DNA of 49,874 nt from a virus: IMG/VR virus record IMGVR_UViG_3300020213_000041, positions 1 to 49,874 of that record; one strand, written 5' to 3'. The translations under genes were made by a program, and so were the position numbers. Positions 29,075 through 49,874 of this stretch are shown piece by piece. Under the pieces are notes generated by a model that made no database searches, had not been told where the DNA came from, and saw nothing but the letters and a program-made list of their open reading frames with translations. How positions within the stretch are numbered: position 1 is the first letter of the stretch; the number at the start of each line of letters is the position of its first letter.

Positions 29075-29150
29075 TGGAGCCGGGAACCGGGGTCGAACCG
29101 GCGGCCTCATGATTACGAATCAAGCGCTCTACCATCTGAGCTATCCCGGC
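29075..29150 (-). tRNA. tRNA-Thr (anticodon CGU)
   Basis: The minus strand folds into a full cloverleaf. The acceptor stem is GCCGGGA/TCCCGGC, the D arm contains AGCTCAGATGGTAGAGC, and the anticodon loop is TTCGTAA with anticodon CGT. The T arm is GCCGGTTCGACCCCGGT-like, and CCA is encoded at the 3' end (29075-29077 on the plus strand). The anticodon stem has one U-U mismatch. It reads ACG codons. Its anticodon arm shares TGATTACGAATCA (plus strand) with the nearby attP core. Confidence 0.95.
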
Positions 29151-29173: not shown

Positions 29174-29299
29174 TCAGGACCGGTAGTCTACCGAGTCCTC
29201 CTCATCGCGTGTCAGGCTAGGTCCGCGCAGCCAGTCCACCACGCCCAGCACCAGCCCTGCCACCAGCACCCCGGCCTGAATCCACGCCCATAGGGTCAT
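29174..29299 (-). CDS. 41-aa membrane protein overlapping int
   Basis: ATG 29299 overlaps the integrase stop (ATGA), so translation is coupled. The product starts MTLWAWIQAGVLVAGLVLGV, a clear transmembrane helix, followed by VDWLRGP and an acidic tail with DEEDS. It is probably a small inner-membrane protein. Function unknown; a superinfection-exclusion role would fit but is speculative. Confidence 0.62.
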   Translation of the reverse strand: MTLWAWIQAGVLVAGLVLGVVDWLRGPSLTRDEEDSVDYRS

Positions 29300-32019: not shown

Positions 32020-32058
32020 TGCTTCTCTCTTTGCAAACTAACATGCGGTGCCTAGCGG

Positions 32059-32658: not shown

Positions 32659-32782
32659 CAGTCTTACCTTCCTTCTTCTTCGTCCATTCCATCGTGTAAT
32701 GTCGTCCGCAATGTACGCAGACCCCCGGCCCTTCTGACGCGGCCTTTGTTGGCTTTCCGCAGGAACATTCAGCGTGATACAT
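32600..32782 (-). CDS. Zinc-ribbon small protein
   Basis: From ATG 32782 it has 60 aa with CSCGK and CVHCGR, an obvious two-pair zinc ribbon, then a basic tail. It overlaps the end of the SNF2 helicase gene by 14 nt and the HD gene by 59 nt. Small zinc ribbons next to helicases may be partners; no function is known. Confidence 0.55.
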   Translation of the reverse strand: MYHAECSCGKPTKAASEGPGVCVHCGRHYTMEWTKKKEGKTDDYVRRNVGNPGFRGPKPE

Positions 32783-34340: not shown

Positions 34341-35281
34341 AGCGCCGTGTCCAGTGCGTACACCTTCGGGGTGAAGCCGTCCGCATCTACCGGCTGGCTG
34401 GCCAGCGCTTCCGCGCTGATGGCTAACCGGCTGTCGATCATGTCAATTAAGTGCGCTACCTGGGCTTCACGCGTCGCGGGCAGGACAGCCGCGCCCCACT
34501 CCCGGATTCCATGATGACTCGCGATGATATGGGCCACATGATCCCGCGTCGCTTCGTCCAGCAGTTCGCAGTGTTGTGACCACATAATTTCCCCCTGGAT
34601 AATGTGGCCCAGCAACGCGCCGCGCCGGGTCACCCCAATAGACTCGCTGTAGCTCAATTCGTCCAGCTTGCCTAAATCATGCATAATCATCCCGGCCATT
34701 AGCACGTCACGGTCCAGATCCGGGTACACCTTGCAGACCGCATCCACTAGGCCGCAGAGATTCAACGTATGCTCTAACAGCCCTCCCAGGTACGCCTGAT
34801 GAATCTTGCGCGCAGCCGGGGCGTCCCGCAGCCGGTCCCGGATTCCGTGAGCCGGGTTCTGAATCATGTTCAACAGCGTGTCCTGCAGCCGTTGCTGTTT
34901 GATCGTATAGACCCACGATTCCAGGTCAGCCAGCATCACATCCCGGTCCCGCTTTGACGCGGGTATGAAGTCTTCAATGGTCACTTCAGCCCGCTCCAGG
35001 ACCCGGAGCCGGACCAGCTTAAGCTGTACCGCGTCGCGATAGATCCCGGCCACCGCGCGGACCTTCACAAAGTCCCCGGCTTTGCAGCCGGTAAAGTCAG
35101 ATGGTATATCCCATAGCTTCGCGTCTACCGCGCCAGTGCAGTCTCCCAGCATCAGCGATAGATACGGCTTCCCGCCCTTCGCTTCTTTGCGCGCGACTTC
35201 CCGCACCTGGAATGATTCATCGAATAGTCCTCCATCAGCAATGATCTGATCGGCGTACAAGACCTTCATAAGTCGAAACAA
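34319..35281 (-). CDS. YhaM-like OB/HD 3'-5' exonuclease
   Basis: This 320-aa protein has an OB-fold at the N-terminus (KPYLSLMLGDCTGAVDAKLW) and an HD domain (GGLLEHTLNL, GMIMHDLGKLDE, IIASHHGI). This order matches YhaM/CBF1-type 3'-5' exoribonuclease/DNases of bacteria. It overlaps both neighbours slightly, in a helicase-nuclease-helicase operon. A first ATG gives MFRLMKV; the start may be the second Met. Confidence 0.84.
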   Translation of the reverse strand: MFRLMKVLYADQIIADGGLFDESFQVREVARKEAKGGKPYLSLMLGDCTGAVDAKLWDIPSDFTGCKAGDFVKVRAVAGIYRDAVQLKLVRLRVLERAEVTIEDFIPASKRDRDVMLADLESWVYTIKQQRLQDTLLNMIQNPAHGIRDRLRDAPAARKIHQAYLGGLLEHTLNLCGLVDAVCKVYPDLDRDVLMAGMIMHDLGKLDELSYSESIGVTRRGALLGHIIQGEIMWSQHCELLDEATRDHVAHIIASHHGIREWGAAVLPATREAQVAHLIDMIDSRLAISAEALASQPVDADGFTPKVYALDTALWNWGRE

Positions 35282-36789
35282 TTCCCCGTTCTGGGCTGCA
35301 ACAGATACAGCGTATTACGCGCCCGCGTTACCCCGACATACCAAACCCTGCATTCGTCGTCTGCCTTACGGTCCATTTCTAGCCTCGTCCGGGACGACAT
35401 ATCCGTTAGCAACAGCACGTTGTCCGCTTCCCCGCCCTTCGCCGCGTGGATCGTACTAATACGAATTCGTGGCGTGCCGGTCAGCGTTTCCCCCTGCTTA
35501 CGGGCCGCGATGAAATACGCGCGGTCCGCGTCGTTCACACGGTCCAGCATGTGATGCCAGATCGGCGGGTTCGACGGGAAGCCCCATTCCTGCATCAGGC
35601 CGATAGTCACGGGCTGGTCAGCCGGGTGCTTACGCAGGGCCTTACGCACCCTCTGATCCACCGTCGCAACACTGATGAATTTCAGTACCGCTTCTACGTC
35701 TTCTTTCTTGCTCTCGACACCCCTGCATAGCCGGGTGTACGCAATCACCGCGCGTAGCGCCTGGCCGTTCAGGGGGTTGTCCCTGCCCACGGATTCATAG
35801 CTGTAGCCCCGCACCCGGCATATCGCTTCCAGTTCGTCTAGCATGTACCCATTACGTGCTAGCAGCAGCCATGATCCGGTACCAGGCCCCATGTCTATCT
35901 CTTCCGGGTCCGTAGCGTAGCGCACAGACCCCGGCTCTTTGCGGGGCGTCCAGGTCTTCGGGGTCCGGGTCCCAATCTGTTGCACAATGCGGTCAGCCAC
36001 GGTGTGCACAGAACCCGGTATCCGGTACGATTGCCCCAGCACCCGGATGCTACCCCGCAGGGCCATGAAAGCGTCAACGTCCGCTCCAGCCCATCGGTAT
36101 ATCGCTTGGTCATCGTCCCCCGCGATATAGACCCGCCGCGCCCGCTGGGCCACCGCGTCCACCGCGCGCCATTGCAGCGCGGACAGGTCTTGCGCCTCAT
36201 CGACAATCAGCGCGTCCAGCGGTGGGACCGTGCGCGCGGCCTGCGCGGTGAAACGCTGCAGCATGTCCGTATAGTCCACCAGCCCGCGCTGGACTTTGTA
36301 CCGTTCCAGCGCGCGTGCTAGCTGGTCTAGCTGACCATACGAAATATCTGGTTCGTCCGCATCGTCATAGACGCGCGCTAGGGGCCGATCACTGACGCGC
36401 GCCAGACCTTCAAGAAACAGCATCCGGTCTCCGGCATCCATTCCATATAGTTCATCGTCCAGGCCCCTGGACCCCTTCAGGTCCAGGCCCAGCCGGTCGC
36501 CTAACTCCCGGTAGTGTTTGCTGCTCATGACCCCATCGGGCCGCAGGCCCAGGCGACGAAAACACAGACTGTGTATCGTGCGATAGTACGGCAGCTCGGA
36601 CGGCGCAAAGCTGAAGCGCTTACAGGCGCGCTCAGTAGCTTCTGACGCGGCCTTCTTAGTGAATGCCAGAAACGCGATGTTCTGGGGATGAACCCCGGCT
36701 TCCAGTTCCTGCTGCATGATTGACAGTAGGGCTGTGGTCTTCCCGGTACCGGGCGGTCCTAAGATCACGCTTAGTTCGGGGTGCGTCAA
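35266..36789 (-). CDS. UvrD/Dda-like superfamily 1 helicase
   Basis: This 507-aa helicase has Walker A GPPGTGKTT (12-20), motif II DEAQDLSALQW (about 197-207), and GDDDQAIYRWAGAD, motif III. It has RISTIHAAKGGEADNVLL (motif V) and a C-terminal YVGVTRARNTLYLL (motif VI). It is smaller than UvrD and may unwind DNA for the phage polymerase. It overlaps the next gene by 4 nt. Confidence 0.92.
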   Translation of the reverse strand: MTHPELSVILGPPGTGKTTALLSIMQQELEAGVHPQNIAFLAFTKKAASEATERACKRFSFAPSELPYYRTIHSLCFRRLGLRPDGVMSSKHYRELGDRLGLDLKGSRGLDDELYGMDAGDRMLFLEGLARVSDRPLARVYDDADEPDISYGQLDQLARALERYKVQRGLVDYTDMLQRFTAQAARTVPPLDALIVDEAQDLSALQWRAVDAVAQRARRVYIAGDDDQAIYRWAGADVDAFMALRGSIRVLGQSYRIPGSVHTVADRIVQQIGTRTPKTWTPRKEPGSVRYATDPEEIDMGPGTGSWLLLARNGYMLDELEAICRVRGYSYESVGRDNPLNGQALRAVIAYTRLCRGVESKKEDVEAVLKFISVATVDQRVRKALRKHPADQPVTIGLMQEWGFPSNPPIWHHMLDRVNDADRAYFIAARKQGETLTGTPRIRISTIHAAKGGEADNVLLLTDMSSRTRLEMDRKADDECRVWYVGVTRARNTLYLLQPRTGNCFDL

Positions 36790-38384
36790 AACAACCCGCC
36801 TTCTTTGTCCGCGTCTACGGCATCCGGGACCGGCACCGCTTCAACGCGCGGGCTGAATTCCGGTACAGACCAAAGGTTGACAAATCGCGTACCTACGCGC
36901 TTACCTTCATGGCTCACATACGCCTTGTTCCCCTTCGTCCGCTTCATCTTGAGTACCTTTGCGATCTGTTGCACCTTCAGGTCTTTGAACCCGACACGGC
37001 CCAAAAACTTTAGCAGATCCGCAGTCCTAAAGTATGTCCGGCCTTCCAGTGTGTAGGGCTTACCAAGCAATACCTCTTCGATAGTTTGTGCCTGGGTCCG
37101 CCCAGTGCAAAATTGCTCTAACAAGTCCCAAAACATGCCTTCTATTGACGCGTCTTCCGGGGGCGGGTCCAGGCGGTCAACACCTTCCAACAGGCTATTG
37201 ATGGTCTGTTGCCAGACGATGCGGCTTGGCATCTGAGGCATGATGTCAAGCTGATCCATGCACTTCTTCTGAAACGATGCCGGGTCCTGGAGTTCGTCCG
37301 TACTCATTTCAAGTGCTAGTACGTCCCCGTCCCTGTTTGTTACGTCCAGGTACCACACCGGGGGCACGGTTAATAGCTTGCGTAGCTGTCCTAGCACGGG
37401 TAACGCGGACCCGCCCCCGCCTACCCCGAACTTACGGGACCTGCACTGTACCGCGTTACAATGCGGTGCTAGCGGGTGCTTACTACATGGGTAGTGATAC
37501 TCTTTGCCGCGCGCCAGCGACTGTTTCACCGTCCGCACTTCTTCCACTGGCAGCGGTTCACTGAAAAACTGATTGTTAGCGCCGTCTACCCGGTCCGCCC
37601 AGTCATTAGGGTGCGCTTTGCGCATGTACACGCCCAGGGCGAATAACCCCTGATTCCGGGTCCCTTCCGGGAAGCCCAACTGAATTAGATGCTGTAAGCA
37701 CGGTGGGCCGTCAGGCAGGACTTGTATTTCATCTGTCCGCTTCTTACTCTCCTTTCCCTCAAACCATCTGAGCGGCGCATGGGCGCGCAACGCCTTCGCT
37801 TTGTGCAGGAAGTCGTTCATGGTGTACGGGTCACCATGCGGATTGATCGCGTAGCGGTTCGTTTGGTCGCCCCCGAAATAGGGCATATTAATCCAGGACC
37901 CCAGGTCCCGGCTGTCACCGCTCAACTGGCTTTGCTTGGGGAATATCTCACTGTTCCCGTGGCCAAGGCGCGCCGCTATGTCCCGCAAGCGGGTTTGCAT
38001 CAGGTTTGCCGGGACCGCGACATCAGCGAACAGGAATACGTGTAACCCACCTGATTTACTACGGCATGGAATCAGGGGTAGCTTCCATTCCAGTAGCTGG
38101 CGCGCCACAGCGCAAGGATCCAGGGTGCCGTATACGTCGATATCGATAGCGCCAAAAAAGCAGGTGTTATCATCGCGAATGGGAATGATGCCGATACCAT
38201 TGATACCCAGCAGATGCGCAGCCCATAGCTCATCTGTGACAGGTTCCCGCTTTGTCAGGGGATCACCTGTGCGCTTACCGTCGCCTCGTGTCTTGTCAAT
38301 GTTATTGTACGTCCCGTGCGCCCGCTCCATGCCCTCAAACAAGGCTCGGAATTCTGGGGCCAGATCGTGCTGTTTCCGGCTCAT
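36786..38384 (-). CDS. TOTE-type archaeo-eukaryotic primase
   Basis: This 532-aa protein matches the AEP primase of TOTE conflict systems and related phages. It shows FFGAIDIDVY with the catalytic DxD at 81/83 and SKSGGLHVFLF (109-119) supplying the His. Later it has a Cys/His cluster (PCSKHPLAPHCNAVQC, about 290-305) that may bind zinc. The C-terminal region (about 330-500) has no recognised domain and may bind DNA or a helicase. It probably makes primers for the family-B polymerase at 41-43 kb. Confidence 0.85.
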   Translation of the reverse strand: MSRKQHDLAPEFRALFEGMERAHGTYNNIDKTRGDGKRTGDPLTKREPVTDELWAAHLLGINGIGIIPIRDDNTCFFGAIDIDVYGTLDPCAVARQLLEWKLPLIPCRSKSGGLHVFLFADVAVPANLMQTRLRDIAARLGHGNSEIFPKQSQLSGDSRDLGSWINMPYFGGDQTNRYAINPHGDPYTMNDFLHKAKALRAHAPLRWFEGKESKKRTDEIQVLPDGPPCLQHLIQLGFPEGTRNQGLFALGVYMRKAHPNDWADRVDGANNQFFSEPLPVEEVRTVKQSLARGKEYHYPCSKHPLAPHCNAVQCRSRKFGVGGGGSALPVLGQLRKLLTVPPVWYLDVTNRDGDVLALEMSTDELQDPASFQKKCMDQLDIMPQMPSRIVWQQTINSLLEGVDRLDPPPEDASIEGMFWDLLEQFCTGRTQAQTIEEVLLGKPYTLEGRTYFRTADLLKFLGRVGFKDLKVQQIAKVLKMKRTKGNKAYVSHEGKRVGTRFVNLWSVPEFSPRVEAVPVPDAVDADKEGGLF

Positions 38385-38401
38385 GCATTCCCTTTCAAAG
38401 C

Positions 38402-38434
38402 AAAAAAAAAGGGCCGCGCGTTAACGCGGCCCTT
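38402..38434 (-). terminator. Terminator downstream of SSB-like gene
   Basis: GGGCCGCG (38411-38418) pairs with CGCGGCCC (38425-38432). On the minus strand the stem is followed by nine T residues. It splits the SSB-like operon from the primase/helicase operon. Confidence 0.9.
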
Positions 38435-38467
38435 TCGTGACTCACTCCTGGTCACCTGGTCATCCGG

Positions 38468-39292
38468 TTAGAACGGCACATCATCATCCGCCTGGGGCTG
38501 GACCGGTCCATCAGGGGATTCCTTCACTTTCCCGGCCAGCACCGCATCCCGGTACAGCTTAGCGGCCTGATAGGTGGTCACATCGGTAATCCGGCCCCCG
38601 TCTTCAAAACGCAGTTGCTGGTAGGTCTTCGCGGTCCGCTTTGACGTGTCCAGGAAGCTCGACACCTTGTAGGAGTGTGAGTAGATCGGTGCCTGCGCGC
38701 CGTTCGGAAGTTTCTTGCTGGTTACAAGATGCATCCATTTCCTTGCCGCGCCCAGCTTGGAACCTGTCAGCGCCAGAATCCCCCACTGCATCCCGCCGAG
38801 CTCATCGGCCAGCAGGCCGTGAAATTTCGCGGTTTCTTCCAGCGTGTTCCCGGAGTCATTGACCAGCACGATTCCGCCATCGGGGGTTTCTTTGCGTGTC
38901 GCGCCGTCCAGTATTGCCTGATTCATCGGGTGATCGGTGACTTTACCCTGCTGGTTGGGGCGCCACTCTGCAATGACCTTCTGGTAGTTGACCGGAACAA
39001 ACAGGGCCCACTTACCCTTGCTACTGCGGATGTCCACCACTTCCCTCGTTACGTTGTTCAGGAGCATACCGGGTACCGCGTCTGCTATGAATGCCTGATT
39101 GCCTTCTTCGCATTCGGGGGAGCCTTTCTGCAACAGCTTCATGAACGGAATCGCAATGTCCGCAGCCGTAACGTCTTCCAGACCTACGCCCGCGTCTTCG
39201 GTCATCAGCGCCATTAGGGCCGCTTGCGATTCCGCCGCGCTTATGAGGGCGCCGTGTTCCACCGGGACTAGTGCTGTTTCTTCGTTTACCAT
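38468..39292 (-). CDS. SSB-like protein with acidic C-terminal tip
   Basis: This 274-aa protein has a beta-rich core (KWALFVPVNYQKVIAEWRPN, GGMQWGILALTGSKLG, and AARKWMHLVT). It ends in QPQADDDVPF, very similar to the DDDIPF tip of single-stranded DNA-binding proteins, which recruits replication partners. This family is common in phages beside replication genes. The role as ssDNA-binding protein is strongly suggested by the tip and location, but the fold is inferred. Confidence 0.72.
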   Translation of the reverse strand: MVNEETALVPVEHGALISAAESQAALMALMTEDAGVGLEDVTAADIAIPFMKLLQKGSPECEEGNQAFIADAVPGMLLNNVTREVVDIRSSKGKWALFVPVNYQKVIAEWRPNQQGKVTDHPMNQAILDGATRKETPDGGIVLVNDSGNTLEETAKFHGLLADELGGMQWGILALTGSKLGAARKWMHLVTSKKLPNGAQAPIYSHSYKVSSFLDTSKRTAKTYQQLRFEDGGRITDVTTYQAAKLYRDAVLAGKVKESPDGPVQPQADDDVPF

Positions 39293-39300
39293 GGTTGTCT

Positions 39301-39927
39301 TTACCCTTTCGTCTTTTTCGCCTTCACCGGCTTGACTTTTGCCAGCCGGACCTTATGTACTCCAAACACATCTACAGGGAGCCCGGTAGCCTTCTCTAGC
39401 TGTTCCCGTACAAACGCCTTCAGCGTCTGAGGGTGAATCTGTTCAGTTTGGCTATACGGAATCCCCGCTTTGTTCAGCCCTGCCATAACCCGCTGGGCTT
39501 GCGTTTCGTCGCCGCGCGCGAAGGCCAACCTTACTTCCCGCTTGATAAGGTCGCCGTGTCCGTTTGACCGTACCCAGGCAAATGCCGCATCGCGCCGAGC
39601 CTGTAACTTTGGGTCGTCCGTGCTGGCATTGGGCAGGTTCACATAGTACTCATCCCCCAGCGTCACGCGGGACCCGTCCGGGAGCCGTACCTCAGATAAC
39701 CCGGCTGCTGCCAGCGCGTCCGGTAGCAACGTTTCCGCTACTCGCTGCAGTTGCCCCTTCACGTCAGCCAGGGCGCGTTCCTGGACAGCTACAGCCTGTT
39801 CCAGGCGCACTTGTTCAGCGGCCAGCGCGCCTACCGTCTTCAGCTTCTCATCGTCCAGCAATGCCAGCGCGTCCGTTTCCGCGTCAGAGGCCATGAGTGA
39901 CAGCAGGTCCCCGTCCCCGTCAATCAC
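39301..39927 (-). CDS. Replication-region protein, coiled coil, unknown
   Basis: This 208-aa protein has an N-terminal helical region (LKTVGALAAEQVRLEQAVAV), a small beta segment (VRLPDGSRVTLGDEYYVNLP), and a Lys-rich C-terminus (KVKPVKAKKTKG). It sits directly upstream of the SSB-like gene, 8 nt apart, and overlaps the next gene. No function was recognised; DNA binding is suggested by the tail. Confidence 0.65.
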   Translation of the reverse strand: MIDGDGDLLSLMASDAETDALALLDDEKLKTVGALAAEQVRLEQAVAVQERALADVKGQLQRVAETLLPDALAAAGLSEVRLPDGSRVTLGDEYYVNLPNASTDDPKLQARRDAAFAWVRSNGHGDLIKREVRLAFARGDETQAQRVMAGLNKAGIPYSQTEQIHPQTLKAFVREQLEKATGLPVDVFGVHKVRLAKVKPVKAKKTKG

Positions 39928-40240
39928 TTTTCACCGCCTTACGAAACAGATCGACAGCCACCGGATAGTAGATGTAATTCTGCCGGTCCCACTTCAGGAC
40001 CTGGAAGCGACCTTGATTGATCTCAGAGGCCACCGCGCAGGCTAGCCCGATAGCCACCGGGTCCCCAATCAACAGTAGATAGTCCGCATCAGTGAACGCG
40101 GCCAGGGCCCGCTGTAGCTTGCGTGTTGTGGGACCGGCTGACAGCACAACATCCCCAGGCGGCAACAGCACGTACAACTCACCAAAGCGCAGGGCGTCAA
40201 TGACGTTACACCGCATGACTTCCTGAACCACATAGACCAT
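39920..40240 (-). CDS. Conserved phage hypothetical protein
   Basis: This 106-aa protein has VYVVQEVMRCNVIDALRFGE and FQVLKWDRQNYIYYPVAVD, patterns common in phage hypothetical proteins found near replication genes. A 16-bp palindrome lies upstream. No function is known to me. Confidence 0.65.
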   Translation of the reverse strand: MVYVVQEVMRCNVIDALRFGELYVLLPPGDVVLSAGPTTRKLQRALAAFTDADYLLLIGDPVAIGLACAVASEINQGRFQVLKWDRQNYIYYPVAVDLFRKAVKSD

Positions 40241-40271
40241 GTTTTTTTACTCTCTTTTGTCGCGCCCACAG

Positions 40272-40287
40272 TAGCACGCGCGTGCTA
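40272..40287. promoter_or_regulatory. 16-bp perfect palindrome, possible operator
   Basis: TAGCACGCGCGTGCTA is a perfect palindrome between two leftward genes. Its half-site GTGCTA matches the core of the repeats around attP and at the int promoter. Operator function is a guess. Confidence 0.4.
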
Positions 40288-40322
40288 GTATTTTGCGCCC
40301 CTGACACGCGCCTGACCCTGAT

Positions 40323-40763
40323 TTAACAGGGGTTTCCGTGATTTATCGGGCGTGTGAACAGCACTTCTATCAGAAGCGACCAGGGGTAAGGCATATGCAT
40401 CGTGAGTACCGGGGCCGCGTCGCGATAGTCCACCGATATACCGCCGTCTGACAGCAGCGTGCATCGGTCCGTCCAGGCACGCGGCCAGCCAGCCCAGACA
40501 TAGAAGGTGGCACCCTTACGCGCGAAGACAAACACCCTGCCCCCGGCCCGCGCGCGTTTCTGCAGCCATGCTGGTTGAAAGGGTTCAAAGCGTATCCGGT
40601 TCCCCTTTACCAGCTTGGTTTCTATCCAGGATTCTGTACCGTTTAAGCATCCGTTGACATCTGGCATCCCGGCCCCTACCAGATTCTCTAGCCTCATCCA
40701 ATGCACGCCTGGACTGTGTGCCGGGTCCCGGAGCGGGGCACTGACTTGCTTTGCTTCGGTCAC
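40323..40763 (-). CDS. PD-(D/E)XK (VRR-NUC-like) nuclease
   Basis: This 146-aa protein starts at a GTG. It contains RLENLVGAGMPDVNG, a spacer, SWIETKLVKG, and PAWLQKRARAGGRVFVFAR, the G-x-PD...E-x-K pattern and following helix of phage VRR-NUC/Holliday junction nuclease-like proteins. It probably cuts DNA branches or ends during replication or packaging. Only the core is present, without added domains. Confidence 0.78.
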   Translation of the reverse strand: MTEAKQVSAPLRDPAHSPGVHWMRLENLVGAGMPDVNGCLNGTESWIETKLVKGNRIRFEPFQPAWLQKRARAGGRVFVFARKGATFYVWAGWPRAWTDRCTLLSDGGISVDYRDAAPVLTMHMPYPWSLLIEVLFTRPINHGNPC

Positions 40764-40810
40764 CCGCGCCGGACCCAGTGGCCTAACGCCCAGAACAAAC
40801 AGTTACTCAT
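40760..40810 (-). CDS. 16-aa ORF, possibly a gene remnant
   Basis: The ATG at 40810 overlaps the upstream stop, and its stop overlaps the GTG of the nuclease gene. The product MSNCLFWALGHWVRRG looks like the beginning of a common short phage protein (FWALGxWxRxGGYL-type). It may be a truncated remnant acting as translational coupler. Confidence 0.35.
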   Translation of the reverse strand: MSNCLFWALGHWVRRG

Positions 40811-40964
40811 CACTGGTTACCAACAGGTTGTTAGCGTCCACTTCCCCGCATCGCTGGGCGTATTCCAGCGCCTTCTGTTCCGCGTCTTCGGGGTCAACCG
40901 CAATGATGCGGACAACAGATGGAAGGGTCAGCGTGATACGCCCGCTGACGCAATACTCAGGCAT
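40803..40964 (-). CDS. 53-aa hypothetical protein
   Basis: ATG 40964 overlaps the previous stop by 8 nt. The product has SGRITLTLPSVVRIIAVDPE and an acidic helix with EQKALEYAQRCGEVD. The pattern of a strand followed by DPExAExxALE is frequent in small phage proteins. The same frame stays open upstream, but that part is Arg/Ser-rich and looks non-coding. Confidence 0.55.
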   Translation of the reverse strand: MPEYCVSGRITLTLPSVVRIIAVDPEDAEQKALEYAQRCGEVDANNLLVTSDE

Positions 40965-41172
40965 TGAACGCCGCACAGATGCGCGCCCAGATCGACAGGT
41001 GGGCCGTTGCCTGCGGCTGGGGCAGAGCCCAGACAATCTCACCTTTGATCCGCGTGACGATGCCTGCCTTACCCGATAGCTCGATGTGCTGGCCCTTCCG
41101 GTACCCGTGCCCGGCTCCCAGGTCCAGGCGAATGCTTTTCCCCGTCCCGCCTTCAATCTTCTTTCGTACCAT
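40957..41172 (-). CDS. KOW-like small protein (possibly longer by frameshift)
   Basis: From ATG 41172 it has 71 aa. The segment GYRKGQHIELSGKAGIVTRI resembles a KOW/SH3-type domain. An upstream ATG at 41240 with a good ribosome site (AAGGGAG) starts a frame reading MNEIRYGAAGSGAEELVYGR. A -1 shift at the A-run 41177-41181 would join both into about 95 aa (RKKEMVRKKIEGG at the join). Whether this is a sequence error, mutation or programmed frameshift cannot be told. Confidence 0.6.
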   Translation of the reverse strand: MVRKKIEGGTGKSIRLDLGAGHGYRKGQHIELSGKAGIVTRIKGEIVWALPQPQATAHLSIWARICAAFNA

Positions 41173-41250
41173 TTCCTTTTTCTCCCATAGACCAACTCTT
41201 CAGCACCGCTACCAGCAGCGCCGTACCTTATTTCATTCATTGAGGCTCCC

Positions 41251-43083
41251 TTATGAGTCAAACAAAGTATGCTGTTCGTGCCCGATACTGAGTAACACTC
41301 TATGCGCCTCATCTATGTACCATGTATGATCCACATCAGCCGGAAACTTGTCAGGCAGTTCCATCAGGGATTTGCTACCGTCAGACTTCGGGACTTTGTA
41401 GCCCGACTTTTTATAGTTCAGGACCCCTGAGTTGCTGTCCATGGAGTAATACCACCTGACAACTTTTCCCACATACTCACCGTTGCGCGATGCGCCTCCC
41501 CGCACAGTGCGGACGGCGGTAAACTTGCGGATATCTCGACACGCCACAATGGTGTCTTCCACCGGCACCCGGTCCCGTAACAGCTTGATAACCGCTTCCG
41601 TGACCACCGTAGTACAGGGGTTTTTGTGCAGCCGGAAGATTGCCGGGCCGTCCGTTAGCCCGTCCCACGGGCACGTATACAAGCCCTTGCCCTTCACCTT
41701 CCCGTCAGTCTTGATAGCAATGTAGTTATTCACATCTTTGCTATAGACCGCGCTATAGTGGGCTTCTTCAGTCAAAAACCCCGTTGATCGCTCCCAGCGC
41801 GTAATGGCCTGCTGTAGCTGCTCCAGCCTGGGCCTGGTGCAACGAATCAACACCCCGTCCGTGTTAGCGGATACAACCCGGATACCTTCCGCTTCTATCT
41901 GTTCGATCAGCATCAGCAGTGCTAACTGGCCGGTTAGCGTTACCTGAATCAGCAGGTCCGGGCTGTACAGCGATGACCACTGACTCCCCAGCTTGCCATA
42001 GCTCCCATTAATCGCAATCTTCAGCGATTCCGCCGTGGTCTTATCGCCAGCCCGCTTCGCTGCCAGCCGTCGTTCCACCAACGAACGGTAGACGGTCAGG
42101 AACGCTTCCCCCAGGTGCTGCGGGTACAACCCCTGACCCAGGATGATCGACGGGTAGTAGCTAGTTACGTCGCGGTCAATCAACAGCACGTCTTCCGATG
42201 CGACGTGCATAGTCTGTGTCTCACTCGAATGCAGGCCCCCGATACCGATACGGTACAGCGCGCTATTGATCTGCACGTCCCGGCCAGACAAAGAAGCGGG
42301 TAGCTCGATTGCCCCTTTAGCTCCTACCACGAATTCCGCATCCCGGATGATTGCCAGGAGCTCCTGCAACTGGGGAAGGTCAAAGCTGATATAGTCAGGC
42401 ACCCGGTATCGGTATGCCCTCCCTATCAGACCCTGGGGCCTCTGGGGCCGGACGCCATTAATCTTCTCTACTTCAGCCGCGATCACGGCTTCAGCGACCT
42501 GTGCATCAGACTTGCTCCGCAGGTCCTGCCGGTACGTCAGGCTTAACTCTGTCCGCAGGTCAATCTGGGGGCGCAACTCATTGTGAAGCAGTTCCGTGTT
42601 TGCTAAATCATTTAAACAGTACTCAGCTATCAGGGCCGCTTGCTCTGCGGTCAGTTCGGTGCTGGGGTCAATCGGCAAGTCCTGCAGCTTCTTTGCGTGC
42701 ATCCGGGCCGCGTACAGCTTCAGGGAGGCGTCCAGGGGGGCAATAGGCTTCAGGTCCACATGATCCCAGGGCGGGCACGCTAGGCCGTGTTCTTCCGCGA
42801 TATCGCGGGGCCGGTAGCCCGCTATAATCTGGTCGCTGACTTCTTTTATAGCAAGGGTGCTGTAGCCTTTCAGCGCTAACTGAATCATCGTCAGATCGTA
42901 TTGAGACGAATTGAAGCCGTACAGCGTGGAATTAGTCAGCGTGTGCAACAGCAGCGCTCTATCCAGCGTCCGGTTGGGACTGATCTGTACCCGGATTACT
43001 GCGTCAGCCCCGATCTCTTTGAACAGAGCCAGAAAGAAGTTTGGGTACACTTCCACGTCAAAGACGCGTAAGGTGGTGGCCAT
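41251..43083 (-). CDS. Family B DNA polymerase
   Basis: This 610-aa polymerase has a 3'-5' exonuclease with FDVEVYP (D9, E11), YGFNSSQYDL (N58, D63), and YCLNDLANTE (Y155, D159). The polymerase domain has motif A DRDVTSYYPSI (D305 region), motif B KIAINGSYGKLGS (about 355-367), and motif C SANTDGVLI (407-410, where the usual DTD is NTD, leaving the catalytic second Asp). At 610 aa it is compact, like phi29-sized polymerases but without an obvious terminal-protein gene nearby. It is the main candidate for phage DNA replication. Confidence 0.92.
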   Translation of the reverse strand: MATTLRVFDVEVYPNFFLALFKEIGADAVIRVQISPNRTLDRALLLHTLTNSTLYGFNSSQYDLTMIQLALKGYSTLAIKEVSDQIIAGYRPRDIAEEHGLACPPWDHVDLKPIAPLDASLKLYAARMHAKKLQDLPIDPSTELTAEQAALIAEYCLNDLANTELLHNELRPQIDLRTELSLTYRQDLRSKSDAQVAEAVIAAEVEKINGVRPQRPQGLIGRAYRYRVPDYISFDLPQLQELLAIIRDAEFVVGAKGAIELPASLSGRDVQINSALYRIGIGGLHSSETQTMHVASEDVLLIDRDVTSYYPSIILGQGLYPQHLGEAFLTVYRSLVERRLAAKRAGDKTTAESLKIAINGSYGKLGSQWSSLYSPDLLIQVTLTGQLALLMLIEQIEAEGIRVVSANTDGVLIRCTRPRLEQLQQAITRWERSTGFLTEEAHYSAVYSKDVNNYIAIKTDGKVKGKGLYTCPWDGLTDGPAIFRLHKNPCTTVVTEAVIKLLRDRVPVEDTIVACRDIRKFTAVRTVRGGASRNGEYVGKVVRWYYSMDSNSGVLNYKKSGYKVPKSDGSKSLMELPDKFPADVDHTWYIDEAHRVLLSIGHEQHTLFDS

Positions 43084-43085
43084 GG

Positions 43086-43451
43086 TTAGCCCTTTGCTCT
43101 TGCAATCTGGGCGGTGTAATCAGGCAGATCGTCAAGCTCCGGGTGTGTGGCCTCCAGGTGCATCAAAGCGTCTAGATTGAATCGAGCCGCTGCAAGGTGA
43201 TCTTCGTCCCGAAGACCTAGTTTGTATTGGTTCAAATGTCGAAAGGCCGCATCCAGACAGCGGGAGAACGGCATCCCGGATTCCCAGTTGCGCGGAAGAT
43301 ACTTCGCGGCACCCGCTTCCAGCCGCAGGGCCGTGCGGTGATCCGCTATCGGGGACAGCAGGTCATAGCGGCCTTTACCCGTCGCGGGTTCCCTGATGGC
43401 CCCCGTCTCAAACGAGACACGGCTACCCTCATCTTTAATACCAAAGGTCAT
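43086..43451 (-). CDS. dATP/dGTP diphosphohydrolase-like protein
   Basis: From the ATG at 43451 it has 121 aa; longer upstream reading would run into the direct repeat. It matches the DUF5664/MazG-like family: FETGAIREPATGKGRYDLLS, then GAAKYLPRNWESGMPFSRCL, and HLNQYKLGLRDEDHLAAARF. Family members remove dATP or dGTP, a step used in phages that change their DNA bases, but also found elsewhere. It ends 2 nt before the polymerase gene and is probably translated together with it. Confidence 0.75.
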   Translation of the reverse strand: MTFGIKDEGSRVSFETGAIREPATGKGRYDLLSPIADHRTALRLEAGAAKYLPRNWESGMPFSRCLDAAFRHLNQYKLGLRDEDHLAAARFNLDALMHLEATHPELDDLPDYTAQIARAKG

Positions 43452-43493
43452 TTTAAGGGAACTACTTTTCTCTCTATACGTGAAAAATGAAAA

Positions 43494-43531
43494 GGCCGCT
43501 GATTCGGTCAGACTAGCTGTCCGCAGCGGCC
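43494..43531 (-). other. Transcript-start hairpin in left repeat
   Basis: On the minus strand GGCCGCTG pairs with CAGCGGCC, followed by TTTTC. It begins only a few bases after the -10 box (43538-43543), so RNA from this promoter would fold at once. It could be an attenuator or a put-like antitermination element. The dATP/dGTP hydrolase gene follows. Confidence 0.6.
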
Positions 43532-43537
43532 ACATTG

Positions 43538-43565
43538 ACTATAGCGCGGGAAGTGCAAAAGTAAA
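43538..43565 (-). promoter_or_regulatory. Candidate promoter in left repeat
   Basis: Minus strand: -35 TTTACT (43560-43565), 16-nt spacer, -10 TATAGT (43538-43543). It would drive the hydrolase/polymerase operon to the left. Confidence 0.55.
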
Positions 43566-43610
43566 GGCCGCATAACCTGTAACTGATTGAATCAGCGGAC
43601 TATGCGGCCT
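43565..43610 (-). terminator. Terminator hairpin in left repeat
   Basis: AGGCCGCATA pairs with TATGCGGCCT, with an inner CTGATTCAATCAG hairpin. On the minus strand TTACTTTT follows. It lies immediately after res. Confidence 0.65.
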
Positions 43611-43630
43611 GACGGAAGGGTGTGAACGAA

Positions 43631-46141
43631 CTATGCGCGTTCCTTGTCGCGCATGTCGTCCACAAGAGCAAGCCGCTTTGTCCGGCTGATTGCCTCGGTG
43701 GCGAGTTCAATGAACTGCTGTGGATTGCGCTTGAAGTCGTCAAGCCGCTGACTGCCAGTCAGAATGCGCACCAGGCTTCGGCGCGTCAATTGCGTCTTGT
43801 CCTGAAGGTCGGTCAGGACATCCGGCAACTCAATATCGCTCTCTTCAATCACAATTGGCGCATCCGACGCGGTTTCTTCCGCGCTCACGGCGCCGCGCCC
43901 GATGGCGAGATCGGCCTTGCGGATCTGCACGCGAGTTTTTGTCACAGGCGGTCCATTGCGGATGGCTTCGGCGCAATCCGCGACAAGCTTTTCGTTGTCG
44001 AATTGCACGCGGTAGGTTGTCTTGTGTAGAATCGCTTTGCGCGTCGGGATTGGACGGCGTTCGTCAGCATTCTTAATGTCCAGCTTCCCGGCCAGCTTGC
44101 GGAGGATTTCATTCACCTGCGGCAGTTGCGCCGTGAAGGCGTCCGGCAGCTTTACCGCGCCATCCTTCAGCGCCTTTCGTAGCGTGTCCTGTACTTTGCC
44201 CTTCGCATCGACATATCCAGCGTCCTTCAAATGTGACCAGATAGCCTCAGACTGCGAAACGCCGAGTGCAGTAGTCTGGCCTTGCGCGTCCGTCACGGGG
44301 ATTGCGGCAAATTGGTACGTTTCGACGATGCCGAAACAGATACCTGTATCCTTCTCAATCTCCTTCTGAAGATTTTCGGCGAACTCTTCATAGCCTTCAG
44401 TGGCGACGACGGTGAGAGTATTGATCTCAAGTCCGCGTAGGCGTTCGCCATTCTGGTTGACGCAGAGCCGGAGGCCGCGCCCGATGGTCTGACGGCGCTC
44501 GCGTTCCGTCCCAATTTCGCGCAGGGCACAAATCTGGAAGATGTTCGGGTTGTCCCATCCTTCGCGCAAGGCTGAATGAGAAAAGATGAACTTCAGCTTG
44601 CTATCGAAGCTCAGCAGCTTTTCCTTGTCGCGCATGATGAGGCTGTAGGCGCGCTCCGCATTGTCGCGGCTCACCTGGTTGCTCTCGGATGTCTCTGTCC
44701 ATTTCTCTTTCTTGTCGATAGAGAAGTACCCGTTATGGACTTCGGTCGCATCGGACTCTTCCTTGAAAAGAGTGTTGTACTTCGCCAGCTTGGCGGCTTT
44801 CCGGTATTCTTCCTCGAACATCACCGCGTACTTGCCCTTTTGAGCCGTCCCGTCTTCGGTATAGCGACGGTAGTGTTCAACGGCGTCGATGAAGAACAGG
44901 CTCAGCACCTTGATGCCTTGCGGGCGCAAGCGAAGTTCCTTGTCGAGATGCTCCGTGATTGTGCGGCGGATCATCAGCCGCTTCAGCGCGTCGCCGTCCA
45001 CATCGCCAATTGATTCCCCCGGACGCATCGGCTTTTCAAGGTTGTTAAGTTCCAGATATTTATCACCGGCCTTGCAGCCGATGTTCTGCACCAAACAATC
45101 GGCGTAAACAGCGCGCCCGGTTGTTTGCTCCAGGTCTTCGCCGGGCTCGACCGTGACCAGCTCGCGGCTGACGGCAGTGCCGCGCTGGAAATCCAGCTCG
45201 ACCTTCGCGGTGAACTTGCCCTTTTTGTTGCTCGTGGACAGCAGCTTGATATAGGGCTTGTTGTGCCCACCCTCGACTTCGAGCGACGCCACTTCGATTT
45301 GCTTCACAAGCTTCTGTTCGTAGGCGTCAACAGCATCAAGGCGGTACACCATATGGTGCTTGTCCGCATGGGTCGCGGAATAGCGGAGGGTGCAGAGCGG
45401 GTTCATCGCGCTGATCGCTTCCTTGCCGCGCCCTTCTAAGCCGCCATCCACGGTCTGTGGTTCGTCCACAATCAGGATTGGGCACGTCGCGCGGATCAGG
45501 TCAATCGGCTTCTCTCCGCCCGTCTTCTCTGTGTCCTTGTAGAGGTTGTTGACATCTTTTTTGTTGATGGCCCCGACCGTCACCACCATGATGTGGATAT
45601 GTGGGCTGGTCGCGAAGTTGCGCACCTGCCCGAGCTTGCCGGAATCGTAAAGGAAGTACTCGAAGGGCGTGTTGGCATATAGGGCGCGGAAATGGTCTTC
45701 AGTAATCTGGAGCGTCTTGTAAACGCCTTCCTTGATCGCGACGGTGGGCACAACGATGACAAACTTCGTGAATCCGTATCGGCGGTTCAGCTCGAACACC
45801 GTGCGCAGGTACACATAGGTCTTGCCCGTGCCGGTTTCCATCTCAATAGTGAAATCGCCGGAAGACAGGGACGCAGAGGGGCGAAGGCCGTTCTTGATTT
45901 GGATGTCGCTCAAATTGGTCAGCAGTTCATCGTCAAGCAGTTGCAAGCGATTGCCGATACTAAGCCCGCTTTGCGCGAAGGCAAGGGCTTGCTGAGGTCC
46001 GATCGCATCGCGGGTGACGGTAAATTCCGTCCGGAAGACTTCTTGCCCGCGAAAAAGGTCGCATACCGCGTCAATCGCGGCGCGCTGATAATCAAGCCGG
46101 TCATCGGTGTATGGGTTTTCAAAGTGGAGCTTCATGGCCAT
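43631..46141 (-). CDS. res: Type III restriction subunit Res, nuclease-deleted
   Basis: This 836-aa protein has all main SF2 helicase motifs: METGTGKTYVY (101-111), LIVDEPQTVDGG (motif II, DEPQ), RYSATHADKHH (motif III), and QTIGRGLRLC (motif VI, about 562). Type III Res proteins normally have about 970-1000 aa with a C-terminal PD-(D/E)XK nuclease. Here the sequence after FIELATEAISRTKRLALVD jumps to DMRDKERA and stops. The latter resembles the segment that in full-length Res follows the nuclease core. So the nuclease appears deleted, and the end is set by the phage repeat. ATP-driven DNA movement may persist without cutting. It starts a few bases after mod. Confidence 0.85.
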   Translation of the reverse strand: MAMKLHFENPYTDDRLDYQRAAIDAVCDLFRGQEVFRTEFTVTRDAIGPQQALAFAQSGLSIGNRLQLLDDELLTNLSDIQIKNGLRPSASLSSGDFTIEMETGTGKTYVYLRTVFELNRRYGFTKFVIVVPTVAIKEGVYKTLQITEDHFRALYANTPFEYFLYDSGKLGQVRNFATSPHIHIMVVTVGAINKKDVNNLYKDTEKTGGEKPIDLIRATCPILIVDEPQTVDGGLEGRGKEAISAMNPLCTLRYSATHADKHHMVYRLDAVDAYEQKLVKQIEVASLEVEGGHNKPYIKLLSTSNKKGKFTAKVELDFQRGTAVSRELVTVEPGEDLEQTTGRAVYADCLVQNIGCKAGDKYLELNNLEKPMRPGESIGDVDGDALKRLMIRRTITEHLDKELRLRPQGIKVLSLFFIDAVEHYRRYTEDGTAQKGKYAVMFEEEYRKAAKLAKYNTLFKEESDATEVHNGYFSIDKKEKWTETSESNQVSRDNAERAYSLIMRDKEKLLSFDSKLKFIFSHSALREGWDNPNIFQICALREIGTERERRQTIGRGLRLCVNQNGERLRGLEINTLTVVATEGYEEFAENLQKEIEKDTGICFGIVETYQFAAIPVTDAQGQTTALGVSQSEAIWSHLKDAGYVDAKGKVQDTLRKALKDGAVKLPDAFTAQLPQVNEILRKLAGKLDIKNADERRPIPTRKAILHKTTYRVQFDNEKLVADCAEAIRNGPPVTKTRVQIRKADLAIGRGAVSAEETASDAPIVIEESDIELPDVLTDLQDKTQLTRRSLVRILTGSQRLDDFKRNPQQFIELATEAISRTKRLALVDDMRDKERA
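46064..46100. repeat. Res 5' segment duplicated upstream of mod
   Basis: TACCGCGTCAATCGCGGCGC and following bases (28 bp identical, then one inserted T and 8 more matches) recur at 48196-48232. The second copy lies between the right 146-bp repeat and the mod start. Confidence 0.85.
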
Positions 46142-46143
46142 AC

Positions 46144-48180
46144 CTAGAGGCTCCTCACGTTGTCAAGACCATGCTGCTGGAGAATGGCCGTCAGGTTCAT
46201 TTTGGCGACATCATCCGCAAAGGCGCTATCGCGGAACACGATAGTGGTGTCGCCAGCGGGCGACAACGTCTTGTGCCAGGCGACGATGCCAAGCGCCAGC
46301 GGCTCCACTTCGGACGCGGCGATTTTTTTCGCCATGCAGGCAAGCATCGTGCCTGCTCCGACGCTATGCACGGCCTTACCGGCAATAGTTTTCTGCTCCA
46401 TCGGCACCGTTAGGTCGAGGCCGAGTTTCAACAGAATCTCGAATAGGATGTCCTGTTCTGTGCGGTCACTCTTCAGGTGTTCTACGGACTCTTCGAGAGT
46501 TTTCGGCAAATCATCGCGATTAGGTTCCCAGACACGGATGTTGCTTGTAGAGAGTTTGAACACACGAAAACCTAGATCACCGGCAAACATCGGGTTTTCT
46601 TCCCTAACTTTTGTGCCAGCCCGACGCAGGCGTTCCTTGGTGAGTTCCGCAATATTTCTCGGGACATTCAATTGGTCGCATATAGCTGCAGCTGCTTTTT
46701 GGGCTTTGTCATTAGGGTCAAGAGGCTCCGGCAACTGAAACGTGATTACGCGACGATTTCCGCCATCTGCCATATTTTGCTGCATCACAGCCTGTCCGAG
46801 AGATCCCGAGCCAGCAAAGAGGTCCACTATGACGTCAGTACCACTCGTACCAAACACGATGCAGGTTTTGAGGAAATGTAGAGACTTCGGATAATTGAAG
46901 ACATGTCCTGGCATTATTTCTCTTAAAGCAAGCGTTCCGCTACCGGTTGAGAATTTACCGCCAGTCCATATTGATTTCAGCTTTGAAGTTCTCTCTAAGA
47001 CATCTCCATCCTCCATATCCAATTCAGCTTTGTCCTCGTCCTCCTCAAGGGAATCTCCGACTGAAATGGATGGATCGAGATAGACGCGGTAATCCACGTC
47101 TAACCTTCCGCTTCGTTCAGATCGTTTTGCGTGCAGCCAATCTATATGCTTCCCAACCCTCTCTTTTCCCCATCGCCAGTTTCCTTCCACTCCATCACCG
47201 CGAAACGGAAGAATTTCGACATCAGCTTCGCTAGACCGCCTCAGGGCGCATTGCTGGTTGTTCCTATTCCAGTAAATCGGAAAGAACGCGGTGGGACGAT
47301 CTTCGCGCCTATCAGCACTGCCGTGTTTTCTCAGATCGCGCAAGGCGTATTTCCGGCCTTCAGAGTCTTCATGTTTGAAGACAGCTTTTTGCTCCTCGGT
47401 GAGAGGTAGTCCTTTGGAAACAAAATCCGGGCCACTCCCGTAGATGACGACATACTCATGGCAGGCCGCTATATGCGGCTTATCGTTGATGCCCCCTTGG
47501 TGACGGACGACAGTGATAGTCGCAATGTGGTTTTCTTCGCCGAAGATTTCGTTCGCAACCGCACGAAGGTTGTTTAGCTCTCTATCATCGATCGAGATGA
47601 AGACTACGCCGTCCCTTTTCAAGAGCCCGCGCGCAAGCCTAAGGCGCGGATACATCATATTCAACCAGTCAGTATGGAAACGGCCAGAGGATTCCGTGTT
47701 GGAAGCGATTTTGTGACCGGTGCTGTCCACCTGTCCCGTGATCTGGAGATAGTTTTTGATGTTGTCCTGAAAGTGGTCCGGATAGACGAAGTCCTTGCCC
47801 GTGTTGTAGGGCGGGTCGATGTAGATGAGCTTCACCTTGCCCGAATAGCTCTTTTGCAGCAGCTTCAGGACTTCAAGGTTGTCACCCTCTATCATCAGAT
47901 TGCGCGTGGTATCCCAGTCCACGCTGTCTTCCGGGCACGGTAGCAGGGTGCCCGTAGATGGCGTCAGCGCGAGTTGGCGGGCGCGGCGCTTGCCATGCCA
48001 GTTGAGGCCGTATTTTTCGTCCCGCTCTTCAACAGTTCCACCAAGCAGTTGCTTGAGTACCTCGAAGTCCAGCTTGCCTTCCGTAAAGGCTTCCGGGAAC
48101 AGCGTCTGCAACTGGCCGATGTTCCCCGCGACGATGTCAGGGGAGTGGGTTTCCGGGTCTTGAGCGGTGAGTGGTTTCAT
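46144..48180 (-). CDS. mod: Type III DNA methyltransferase Mod (N6-adenine)
   Basis: From ATG 48180 (MKPLTAQDPE) it has 678 aa. The catalytic motif DPPYNTGKDF (122-131) comes before the AdoMet motif VDLFAGSGSLGQAV (about 430-443), the beta-class order of type III Mod enzymes that methylate adenine. The target recognition domain lies between them. The C-terminus ends in ILQQHGLDNVRSL, as expected for a complete Mod. The longer open frame to 48228 begins inside a copied piece of res and is not needed. It is followed by res in the same operon. It may protect phage DNA from a host enzyme of the same specificity. Confidence 0.93.
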   Translation of the reverse strand: MKPLTAQDPETHSPDIVAGNIGQLQTLFPEAFTEGKLDFEVLKQLLGGTVEERDEKYGLNWHGKRRARQLALTPSTGTLLPCPEDSVDWDTTRNLMIEGDNLEVLKLLQKSYSGKVKLIYIDPPYNTGKDFVYPDHFQDNIKNYLQITGQVDSTGHKIASNTESSGRFHTDWLNMMYPRLRLARGLLKRDGVVFISIDDRELNNLRAVANEIFGEENHIATITVVRHQGGINDKPHIAACHEYVVIYGSGPDFVSKGLPLTEEQKAVFKHEDSEGRKYALRDLRKHGSADRREDRPTAFFPIYWNRNNQQCALRRSSEADVEILPFRGDGVEGNWRWGKERVGKHIDWLHAKRSERSGRLDVDYRVYLDPSISVGDSLEEDEDKAELDMEDGDVLERTSKLKSIWTGGKFSTGSGTLALREIMPGHVFNYPKSLHFLKTCIVFGTSGTDVIVDLFAGSGSLGQAVMQQNMADGGNRRVITFQLPEPLDPNDKAQKAAAAICDQLNVPRNIAELTKERLRRAGTKVREENPMFAGDLGFRVFKLSTSNIRVWEPNRDDLPKTLEESVEHLKSDRTEQDILFEILLKLGLDLTVPMEQKTIAGKAVHSVGAGTMLACMAKKIAASEVEPLALGIVAWHKTLSPAGDTTIVFRDSAFADDVAKMNLTAILQQHGLDNVRSL

Positions 48181-48245
48181 TGTGTGTGTGTTCCCTACCG
48201 CGTCAATCGCGGCGCGCTGATAATTCAAGCCGTGAAAAAGGAAAA

Positions 48246-48283
48246 GGCCGCTGATTCGGTCAGACTAGCTGTCCGCAGCGGCC
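48246..48283 (-). other. Transcript-start hairpin in right repeat
   Basis: Same GGCCGCTG/CAGCGGCC hairpin as in the left copy, now leading into the mod-res operon. Confidence 0.6.
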
Positions 48284-48289
48284 ACATTG

Positions 48290-48317
48290 ACTATAGCGCG
48301 GGAAGTGCAAAAGTAAA
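48290..48317 (-). promoter_or_regulatory. Candidate promoter for mod-res
   Basis: Minus strand TTTACT (48312-48317), 16-nt spacer, TATAGT (48290-48295). It is the duplicate of the left-copy promoter and would transcribe mod and res. Confidence 0.55.
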
Positions 48318-48362
48318 GGCCGCATAACCTGTAACTGATTGAATCAGCGGACTATGCGGCCT
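48317..48362 (-). terminator. Terminator hairpin in right repeat
   Basis: AGGCCGCATA/TATGCGGCCT stem followed by TTACTTTT on the minus strand, downstream of the genes at 48391-49195. Confidence 0.65.
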
Positions 48363-48390
48363 GACGGAAGGGTGTGAACGAACTATTTCC

Positions 48391-48600
48391 TCACACCTTT
48401 ACATAATGACATTGCCGGTCCGGTTTGACGCTTTCGAGTTCAGATGCCAGCCGTCGGATGCTCTGAACGGCGCGCTGTAGCTCGAATAGTTTTAGGCAAT
48501 ACGGGCAGGCCCCGATAATTGCACACTGTCCCCCGTTGTCGGGGTTGTATCGTGTGTGCTTCGGGCACCGCGCGTGCCACCGAATGACACCCCGGTACAT
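48391..48600 (-). CDS. Small Cys-rich protein, zinc-binding candidate
   Basis: This 69-aa protein has ARCPKHTRYN and QCAIIGACPYC, Cys/His pairs suited to bind zinc, then a helix (LFELQRAVQSIRRLASELES). It starts 1 nt after the previous stop. Function unknown; a DNA- or RNA-polymerase-binding role would fit the regulatory block. Confidence 0.6.
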   Translation of the reverse strand: MYRGVIRWHARCPKHTRYNPDNGGQCAIIGACPYCLKLFELQRAVQSIRRLASELESVKPDRQCHYVKV

Positions 48601-48601
48601 G

Positions 48602-49195
48602 CTACACCGCTTCCTGATATTCCGGGTCCGCGTCCTGGGCGATCATTGGGGGCTTCGGGACCGGGAACCGCAGATACGGCGGACTAGCCGGGGTCTGCGG
48701 GGGTGGGGGAGTGGTTCTCTTGTCGTTCTGGCCGGGGTTAAAGTAGGAGTGCAACGGGAAAAGCCCGTACGGTTCTGTTTCGGCGAAGGCCCTGCCCAGT
48801 TCGGCTTCGATACGGTAGCACGCATGAAAGAAGTTGCCCCGATCCATGCCCATGCGACGGCAACACGCCTTCCAGTCCGCGCCCAACAAATAGTGGAACT
48901 TGAACAACTGATGATCCGCCGCGCTCAACGTGCGCTTACACATCAGCACAAAGTCAGCCATATACTCTTCCGGGAAGCGGCTGAACATCAGTGGAGCGCT
49001 ATGCGTAGCATTCATGCGTGGCGCAGCCTCACTGATAACGCGGAATCGCCCCAGGCACACGCGGAAAATCTCGCGTCTGACGCACTTGCAGGGCCGCAAC
49101 TCGGCATCCCGTCTCATCGTCAGACCGATACCTTTGCATGTTGTACAATCACTCTTCGCTAATGGCAGCGTAACAGAACGGTCCCAATTCAGCAT
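48602..49195 (-). CDS. Zinc-finger plus HTH regulator-like protein
   Basis: This 197-aa protein has a DnaJ-type Cys motif at the N-terminus (CTTCKGIGL and PCKCVRREIF). It then has a helical region that reads like a sigma region-4 HTH: DHQLFKFHYLLGADWKACCR, followed by RMGMDRGNFFHACYRIE. The tail is Pro-rich (TTPPPPQTPASPPYLRFPVP). Related phage proteins are often near late regulators. A role in transcription control is likely but unproven. A strong promoter lies at 49314-49341 with a leader of about 110 nt and ribosome site AAAGAGAG. Confidence 0.68.
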   Translation of the reverse strand: MLNWDRSVTLPLAKSDCTTCKGIGLTMRRDAELRPCKCVRREIFRVCLGRFRVISEAAPRMNATHSAPLMFSRFPEEYMADFVLMCKRTLSAADHQLFKFHYLLGADWKACCRRMGMDRGNFFHACYRIEAELGRAFAETEPYGLFPLHSYFNPGQNDKRTTPPPPQTPASPPYLRFPVPKPPMIAQDADPEYQEAV

Positions 49196-49313
49196 GGTGA
49201 TAATAGCTCTCTTTATTTTGTGATTTTGTATGGAGGAAGGACAATCTGGACAGTTCGATTCAGATTTACGCTTTGGGTTTGAGCGTCCCGGTTACGTTTG
49301 CCTTCTGAGTAAT

Positions 49314-49511: not shown

Positions 49512-49734
49512 TGTCTTTACCGTTTAGGTACCGGAGCAAGGCTATGAGGGCGGTGGCAAAGGTTACGTCGGCAGCATCGGATGCGGCTTGGGCTGTGTCT
49601 CGGGTTTCGCGCGCGGCGTGGGCTGTGGCAAAGGCTACGTCGGCAGCATCACTTGCGGCTTTGGCTGTGGCGAAGGCCGCGGCCAATGCTGCTGCGGATA
49701 CGGCGTCGCTGGTATCTGGCCTTTTTTTTATCAT
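49498..49734 (-). CDS. Ala-rich repeat protein
   Basis: This 78-aa protein is rich in Ala, Asp and Thr with repeats AASDAADVAFATAHA and AASDAADVTFATALI, about 34 residues apart. The regular spacing suggests a helix bundle or coiled coil. DNA at 49557-49595 repeats at 49828-49866 in the next gene. The start overlaps the stop of that gene. No function was recognised. Confidence 0.6.
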   Translation of the reverse strand: MIKKRPDTSDAVSAAALAAAFATAKAASDAADVAFATAHAARETRDTAQAASDAADVTFATALIALLRYLNGKDNERI

Positions 49735-49866
49735 GCTGCTACTGCTCCTTGTCTGGTGTCGTCGGCTGCTACGCGGGCACGTTTTAGGGCCGCGTAGGCG
49801 TAAAAGAAGGCTACGCGGGCGGTGTCAAAGGTTACGTCGGCAGCATCGGATGCGGCTTGGGCGGTG
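49557..49866. repeat. Dispersed 39-bp repeat in Ala-rich genes
   Basis: AAGGTTACGTCGGCAGCATC followed by GGATGCGGCTTGGGC occurs at about 49559-49593 and 49830-49864. A diverged copy, with AAGGCTACGTCGGCAGCATC, lies at about 49633-49671. The copies encode the AASDAADV units. Confidence 0.8.
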
Positions 49867-49874
49867 GCTAGGGT
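49731..49874 (-). CDS. Ala-rich repeat protein, partial (window edge)
   Basis: The window ends inside this gene. The visible C-terminal 47 residues include TAQAASDAADVTFDTARVAF and RVAADDTRQGAVAA before the stop at 49731-49733. It is a paralogue of the neighbouring gene, sharing AASDAADVTF and its DNA sequence. The start lies beyond the window. Confidence 0.55.
   Translation of the reverse strand, partial: TLATAQAASDAADVTFDTARVAFFYAYAALKRARVAADDTRQGAVAA

Follow-up and report, generated by a model that had tools for sequence, protein, structure and literature searches.

How can a phage take in a bacterial gene pair at the boundary between two of its operons while sparing the signals of both, and what does such a pair become in its new setting? 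The question is raised by IMGVR_UViG_3300020213_000041, a linear IMG/VR-type virus record whose 49,874 nucleotides, taken at full length, make up the window analysed here. One strand carries the terminase, portal and capsid genes, and the opposite strand the integrase, helicases, primase and polymerase, a gene content that justifies the label of phage given in a preliminary description of this DNA; the integrase implies that this tailed phage is temperate. A complete tRNA-Thr (CGT) gene (29075-29150) adjoins the tyrosine integrase (29296-30444), the usual layout when attP lies within a tRNA gene, and the top matches of this attP-like stretch reach only 84% in a sample of 399 genomes. About 80 viral contigs, mostly of 40 kb, share synteny over the replication block (31015-43083: a VRR-type nuclease, three small genes, a primase and two helicases), the first helicase often being inverted. 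At the left end of the record (1-316), a 17-bp unit (GGCGACCGGATGACCGC) and a degenerate variant of it form an array, and the right end (49538-49874) consists of alanine-rich imperfect direct repeats, at which the assembly probably stopped.

A foreign gene pair between two copies of a repeat

The locus is bounded by a 156-nt direct repeat, R, whose two copies start 4752 nt apart and differ by one mismatch (BLAST E = 1e-78 and 2e-77). This mismatch is close to the inner edge and leaves 146 bases identical, which agrees with what had first been described, and a search of the whole 49,874-base record found no third copy. Between the copies there is only mod and res, both on the minus strand (Table 1); they fill the interval, with the res stop codon inside the left copy, so that the cassette does lie exactly between the repeats, as had been claimed.

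Table 1. Features of the mod-res locus and its flanks (positions in the window)
Feature	Position	Strand	Basis
Phage DNA polymerase, following the diphosphohydrolase gene in the downstream operon	41251..43083	-	family match
dATP/dGTP diphosphohydrolase-like gene (PF18909), downstream of left R	43086..43451	-	family match
R, left copy (predicted signals: promoter between two hairpins, the first a terminator following res); leader of the diphosphohydrolase/DNA polymerase operon	43479..43634	-	repeat search, BLAST, folding, consensus match
Sigma70-like promoter, left R (TTTACT-16-TATAGT)	43538..43565	-	consensus match only
TAG stop codon of res, belonging to R; native 34-41 C-terminal residues lost	43631..43633	-	sequence and alignment
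res-delta (836 aa): ATPase core and spacer of a type III Res, with an in-frame deletion of the endonuclease core	43631..46141	-	profile and alignment
res deletion junction (VD|DMRDKERA), where KRLALVD meets DDMRDKERA after the loss of about 108-114 codons	43655..43663	-	alignment
Source of the filler inside res (36 bp)	46064..46099	-	sequence match
mod (678 aa, full length): type III N6-adenine/N4 DNA methyltransferase with the motifs DPPY and FAGSGS	46144..48180	-	family match, motifs
Filler between R and mod: 37 nt matching res codons ~14-27 at 97%, with one base inserted	48196..48232	-	sequence match, E 3e-12
R, right copy: starts 4 bp past the g48391 stop; mod-res leader	48231..48386	-	repeat search, BLAST, consensus match
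Sigma70-like promoter, right R (TTTACT-16-TATAGT)	48290..48317	-	consensus match only
g48391, 69-aa phage gene upstream of right R, without family	48391..48600	-	

That mod-res came into the phage from outside is borne out by the composition check proposed at the outset: the codon-usage z is 9.1 for res and 9.0 for mod, against at most 2.1 for each of the 26 other phage genes, and the tetranucleotide distance of the cassette exceeds that of all 97 same-size windows of the phage. Neither mod nor res was present at any of the 31 polymerase-bearing, 81 primase-bearing and 9 diphosphohydrolase-bearing loci of relatives; a search of the whole records of 28 of those relatives, several of which may be fragments, returned no Mod match while its positive control worked, and no Res match came from the record of L003, the closest relative, whose polymerase is 61% identical. 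Matches of region 42500-49200 to phage records (blastn) were limited to conserved patches of mod-res, and g48602, a 198-aa neighbour, had no relatives among viral contigs. Reading the locus as an insertion rests on composition and on distant relatives that lack the pair. The expectation that related phages would carry a single R and no mod-res held for its second half: mod-res is absent from the relatives examined, and R was found in none of the retrieved loci, nor did an exact 28-base segment of it match any viral contig. No direct repeats of at least 40 bp bracket mod-res at the other mod/res loci examined, so R-like flanks are not usual for type III cassettes.

The duplicated boundary and its junctions

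Read on the minus strand, R contains in order a hairpin, GGCCGCATA, with a T-rich tail, the predicted promoter and a second hairpin, GGCCGCTG, again with a T-rich tail, each copy holding two GGCCGC-stem hairpins with a predicted promoter in between. The pattern GGCCGC...GCGGCC is matched five times in the window, a number reached by none of 100 shuffles, and R folds better than all of 200 shuffled versions (z -3.8); no Rfam family was found in the region. A predicted phage terminator (38401-38435) has the same GGCCGC stem, with nine T. These hairpin and promoter-like signals, together with the occurrence of the same stem in a terminator elsewhere in the phage, lead us to consider R as phage-style boundary DNA, in support of its earlier description as phage-type regulatory DNA. 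Left R ends 27 bp ahead of the diphosphohydrolase start codon, and the flanks of g48391 and of the diphosphohydrolase, joined without the cassette, would form an intergenic region of 187 bp. Transcription would be driven from R, whose terminator, promoter and leader hairpin are predicted signals, and the view that the insertion duplicated an intergenic region and left the flanking operons with their signals is supported. An antitermination role of the HK022 put type was entertained for R as a further reading.

The junctions do not make the clean capture scar that had been proposed, as one of them contains a 36-bp filler derived from res and at the other res is truncated, its last codons, CGC GCA, being followed by a TAG that is part of R. 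By inspection, overlaps at the cassette junctions amount to one or two bases at most. For the internal deletion of res, a GGACG-like microhomology could have been used, its exact extent being conjectural since even the nearest donor shares no more than about 75% identity in Res. Filler, truncation and small overlaps suit non-homologous joining with templated filler, not transposition. A transposon or other site-specific mobile element would be expected to hold a transposase or recombinase and to show terminal inverted repeats and a short target duplication, a picture that the cassette does not fit: the 156-bp direct repeat is too long for a typical duplication, and site-specific transposition was rejected in view of the fact that nothing besides mod and res lies between the copies of R. 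The filler and its source also form direct repeats around mod alone, and recombination between them would drop mod and leave res behind R.

A Res deprived of its nuclease

Both partners of a type III system are readily recognized. Mod has the N6/N4 methylase fold with its DPPY and FxGxG motifs (PF01555, 1.9e-24; PADLOC MTase_III, 2.8e-201; EcoP15I Mod, E 6e-52), and Res has the SF2 ATPase (PF04851, ResIII, 1.8e-10; PADLOC REase_III, E = 0; EcoP15I Res, E 1e-63). The latter, however, is much shorter than the open frames of 992-1115 aa seen in relatives with 65-76% identity (about 1000 is typical), and can be aligned up to residue ~831 of their proteins. The residues that it skips contain in these relatives the endonuclease core YNPDWAV...YFVVETK (NPDW...VETK), and the window's DDMRDKERA corresponds to the conserved DDLRDKExA motif that directly follows VETK (DDLRDKESA or DDLREKERA in relatives). 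The Pfam family RE_endonuc (PF19778) is absent from the window Res and matches three relatives at 1e-34 to 1e-35; the Res of EcoP15I aligns over the deleted part (YSPDFA...FIIETK). In EcoP15I, the endonuclease comes after a helical spacer whose end lies near residue 810 (PMC4490356), so that the deletion takes the endonuclease domain and leaves motor and spacer. The nuclease motif is intact in all 14 complete Res found in phages and viral contigs (L032, L033, L035-L040, L164, with an ESK variant, and L165-L169), and the ExK motif is seen in 12 of the 13 near-complete cellular relatives, the thirteenth, L139, giving no clear reading. In the viral contig L041, positions 10004-11910 hold the N-terminal part of mod followed only by the C-terminal end of res, nuclease motif included, and this would be another decayed type III locus, of a different kind.

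The C-terminal PD-(D/E)XK endonuclease was looked for and is missing, and for this reason we do not class the cassette as type III restriction-modification. The earlier reading as a type III restriction-modification cassette, with PF19778 absent and the core deleted, cannot be that of a working system, and the term defence module fits poorly a Res that has lost both its endonuclease core and its C-terminus. As this nuclease-less protein is still labelled REase_III at E = 0, the PADLOC label is no test for the presence of a nuclease.

Since the DNA-cutting part of the operon was removed, methylation without cutting is to be expected, and the cassette probably marks DNA that it cannot cut. The Mod dimer of EcoP15I has been described as able to work as a standalone methyltransferase (PMC4490356). 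The predicted product here is a Mod methyltransferase with a Res ATPase and spacer unable to cut, which should retain methylation activity and bring some benefit. Its most likely role would be to methylate the DNA of the phage and of the lysogen without restriction, either as an epigenetic mark or as a shield against a type III enzyme of the host with matching specificity; protection from such a host enzyme would be the simplest benefit, and epigenetic regulation is possible. The in-frame remnant of res may simply be decaying.

Several known systems come to mind. EcoP15I and EcoP1I, the mod-res of P1, have homologous Mod and Res ATPase by sequence, and P1 is likewise a phage; the window cassette differs from them in lacking the endonuclease domain and in having a copy of a duplicated block of phage regulatory DNA at either end. 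Type III mod genes with an inactive res, of the phasevarion type, are found in Neisseria, Haemophilus and Moraxella, where they give methylation without restriction, whereas the present cassette is phage-borne, shows no phase-variable repeat tract and has had its nuclease removed by a large in-frame deletion. It would also qualify as a phage moron, being of foreign composition, absent from relatives and placed between phage operons with its own predicted promoter and terminator, except that these signals were not imported with the genes but come from the phage's own boundary, duplicated over 156 bp. Finally, it is expected to act in the manner of orphan phage methyltransferases, with a type III system as its origin. 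Such enzymes, the subject of a survey (PMC10477858), act against host restriction, and modified phage DNA is expected in both cases, while here a type III Mod comes with a retained Res ATPase and is not a lone methyltransferase.

Probable capture of the cassette and its meaning

We consider it likely that mod-res was captured non-homologously at an operon boundary, with duplication of R and loss of the nuclease, to give a methylation-only cassette. A bacterial type III mod-res operon would have entered the temperate phage between g48391 and the diphosphohydrolase/polymerase operon, the joining having duplicated the boundary block R with its terminator, promoter and leader hairpin. Copying from the phage through R into mod-res, followed by a template switch back to a point upstream of R, would create R-mod-res-R in one step, as would the fill-in of a long staggered break. 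Because this block was duplicated, every operon would keep its signals: g48391 its terminator and the replication/polymerase operon its promoter, with mod-res gaining both a promoter and a terminator. The replication block would tolerate only insertions that preserve its neighbours' signals. The capture would have left the res-derived filler ahead of mod and truncated res at R, and an additional in-frame deletion would have taken out the endonuclease core.

Exactly the same arrangement, with near-identical copies of R, would result from Campbell-type homologous integration, a circle with one R and an already truncated mod-res having recombined with the single R of the phage, which would make R a site of exchange between related phages. 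The fusion of the truncated res to R is in keeping with an older junction moved as a unit, yet R was absent from the retrieved loci, and an exact 28-base segment of it from viral contigs, and a prior illegitimate event joining R to res is still required; we see this course as rather unlikely. It predicts the same map as one-step capture and the data do not separate the two, capture needing fewer unseen molecules. One might also imagine that R belonged both to an empty phage and to a separate mod-res molecule that the assembler joined in a mixed population, as a perfect repeat of 146 bp is about one read length and a phage with R plus a mod-res circle with R give the same assembly graph. Against such an artefact, which seems very unlikely, the copies of R differ at one base, the res deletion preserves the frame, and R abuts both ends of mod-res in every graph solution, so that the fusion of R to res and the filler stand in any case.

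What the cassette does admits other readings too. An intact type III system, turned by the lysogen against other phages, would account for the two genes standing in operon order with the motifs of Mod and of the helicase intact, and P1 has a complete Res; here, however, Res is without the endonuclease core and C-terminus kept in every complete phage relative found, and this reading, which has scarcely any chance of being right, is refuted unless the missing nuclease is provided in trans or misassembly created the deletion. It is distinctly unlikely that the nuclease-less Res was retained on purpose, Mod and the Res motor sliding on DNA so as to mark or block it without cuts (for example for competitor exclusion or for regulation of lysogeny), with the whole cassette gained or lost via the copies of R, and mod alone via the 36-bp repeats.

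This locus is a rarely legible snapshot of a phage gaining two bacterial genes. Its duplicated boundary illustrates how an insertion can spare transcription on both sides, and the filler, the truncation and the microhomology-sized overlaps point to non-homologous joining. Calls of phage-encoded restriction-modification systems that rest on the annotation of mod and res can be wrong, REase_III being very strongly scored by PADLOC even here. The locus also suggests a path by which a defence system may be turned into a protective methylation module, through the removal of its nuclease alone.
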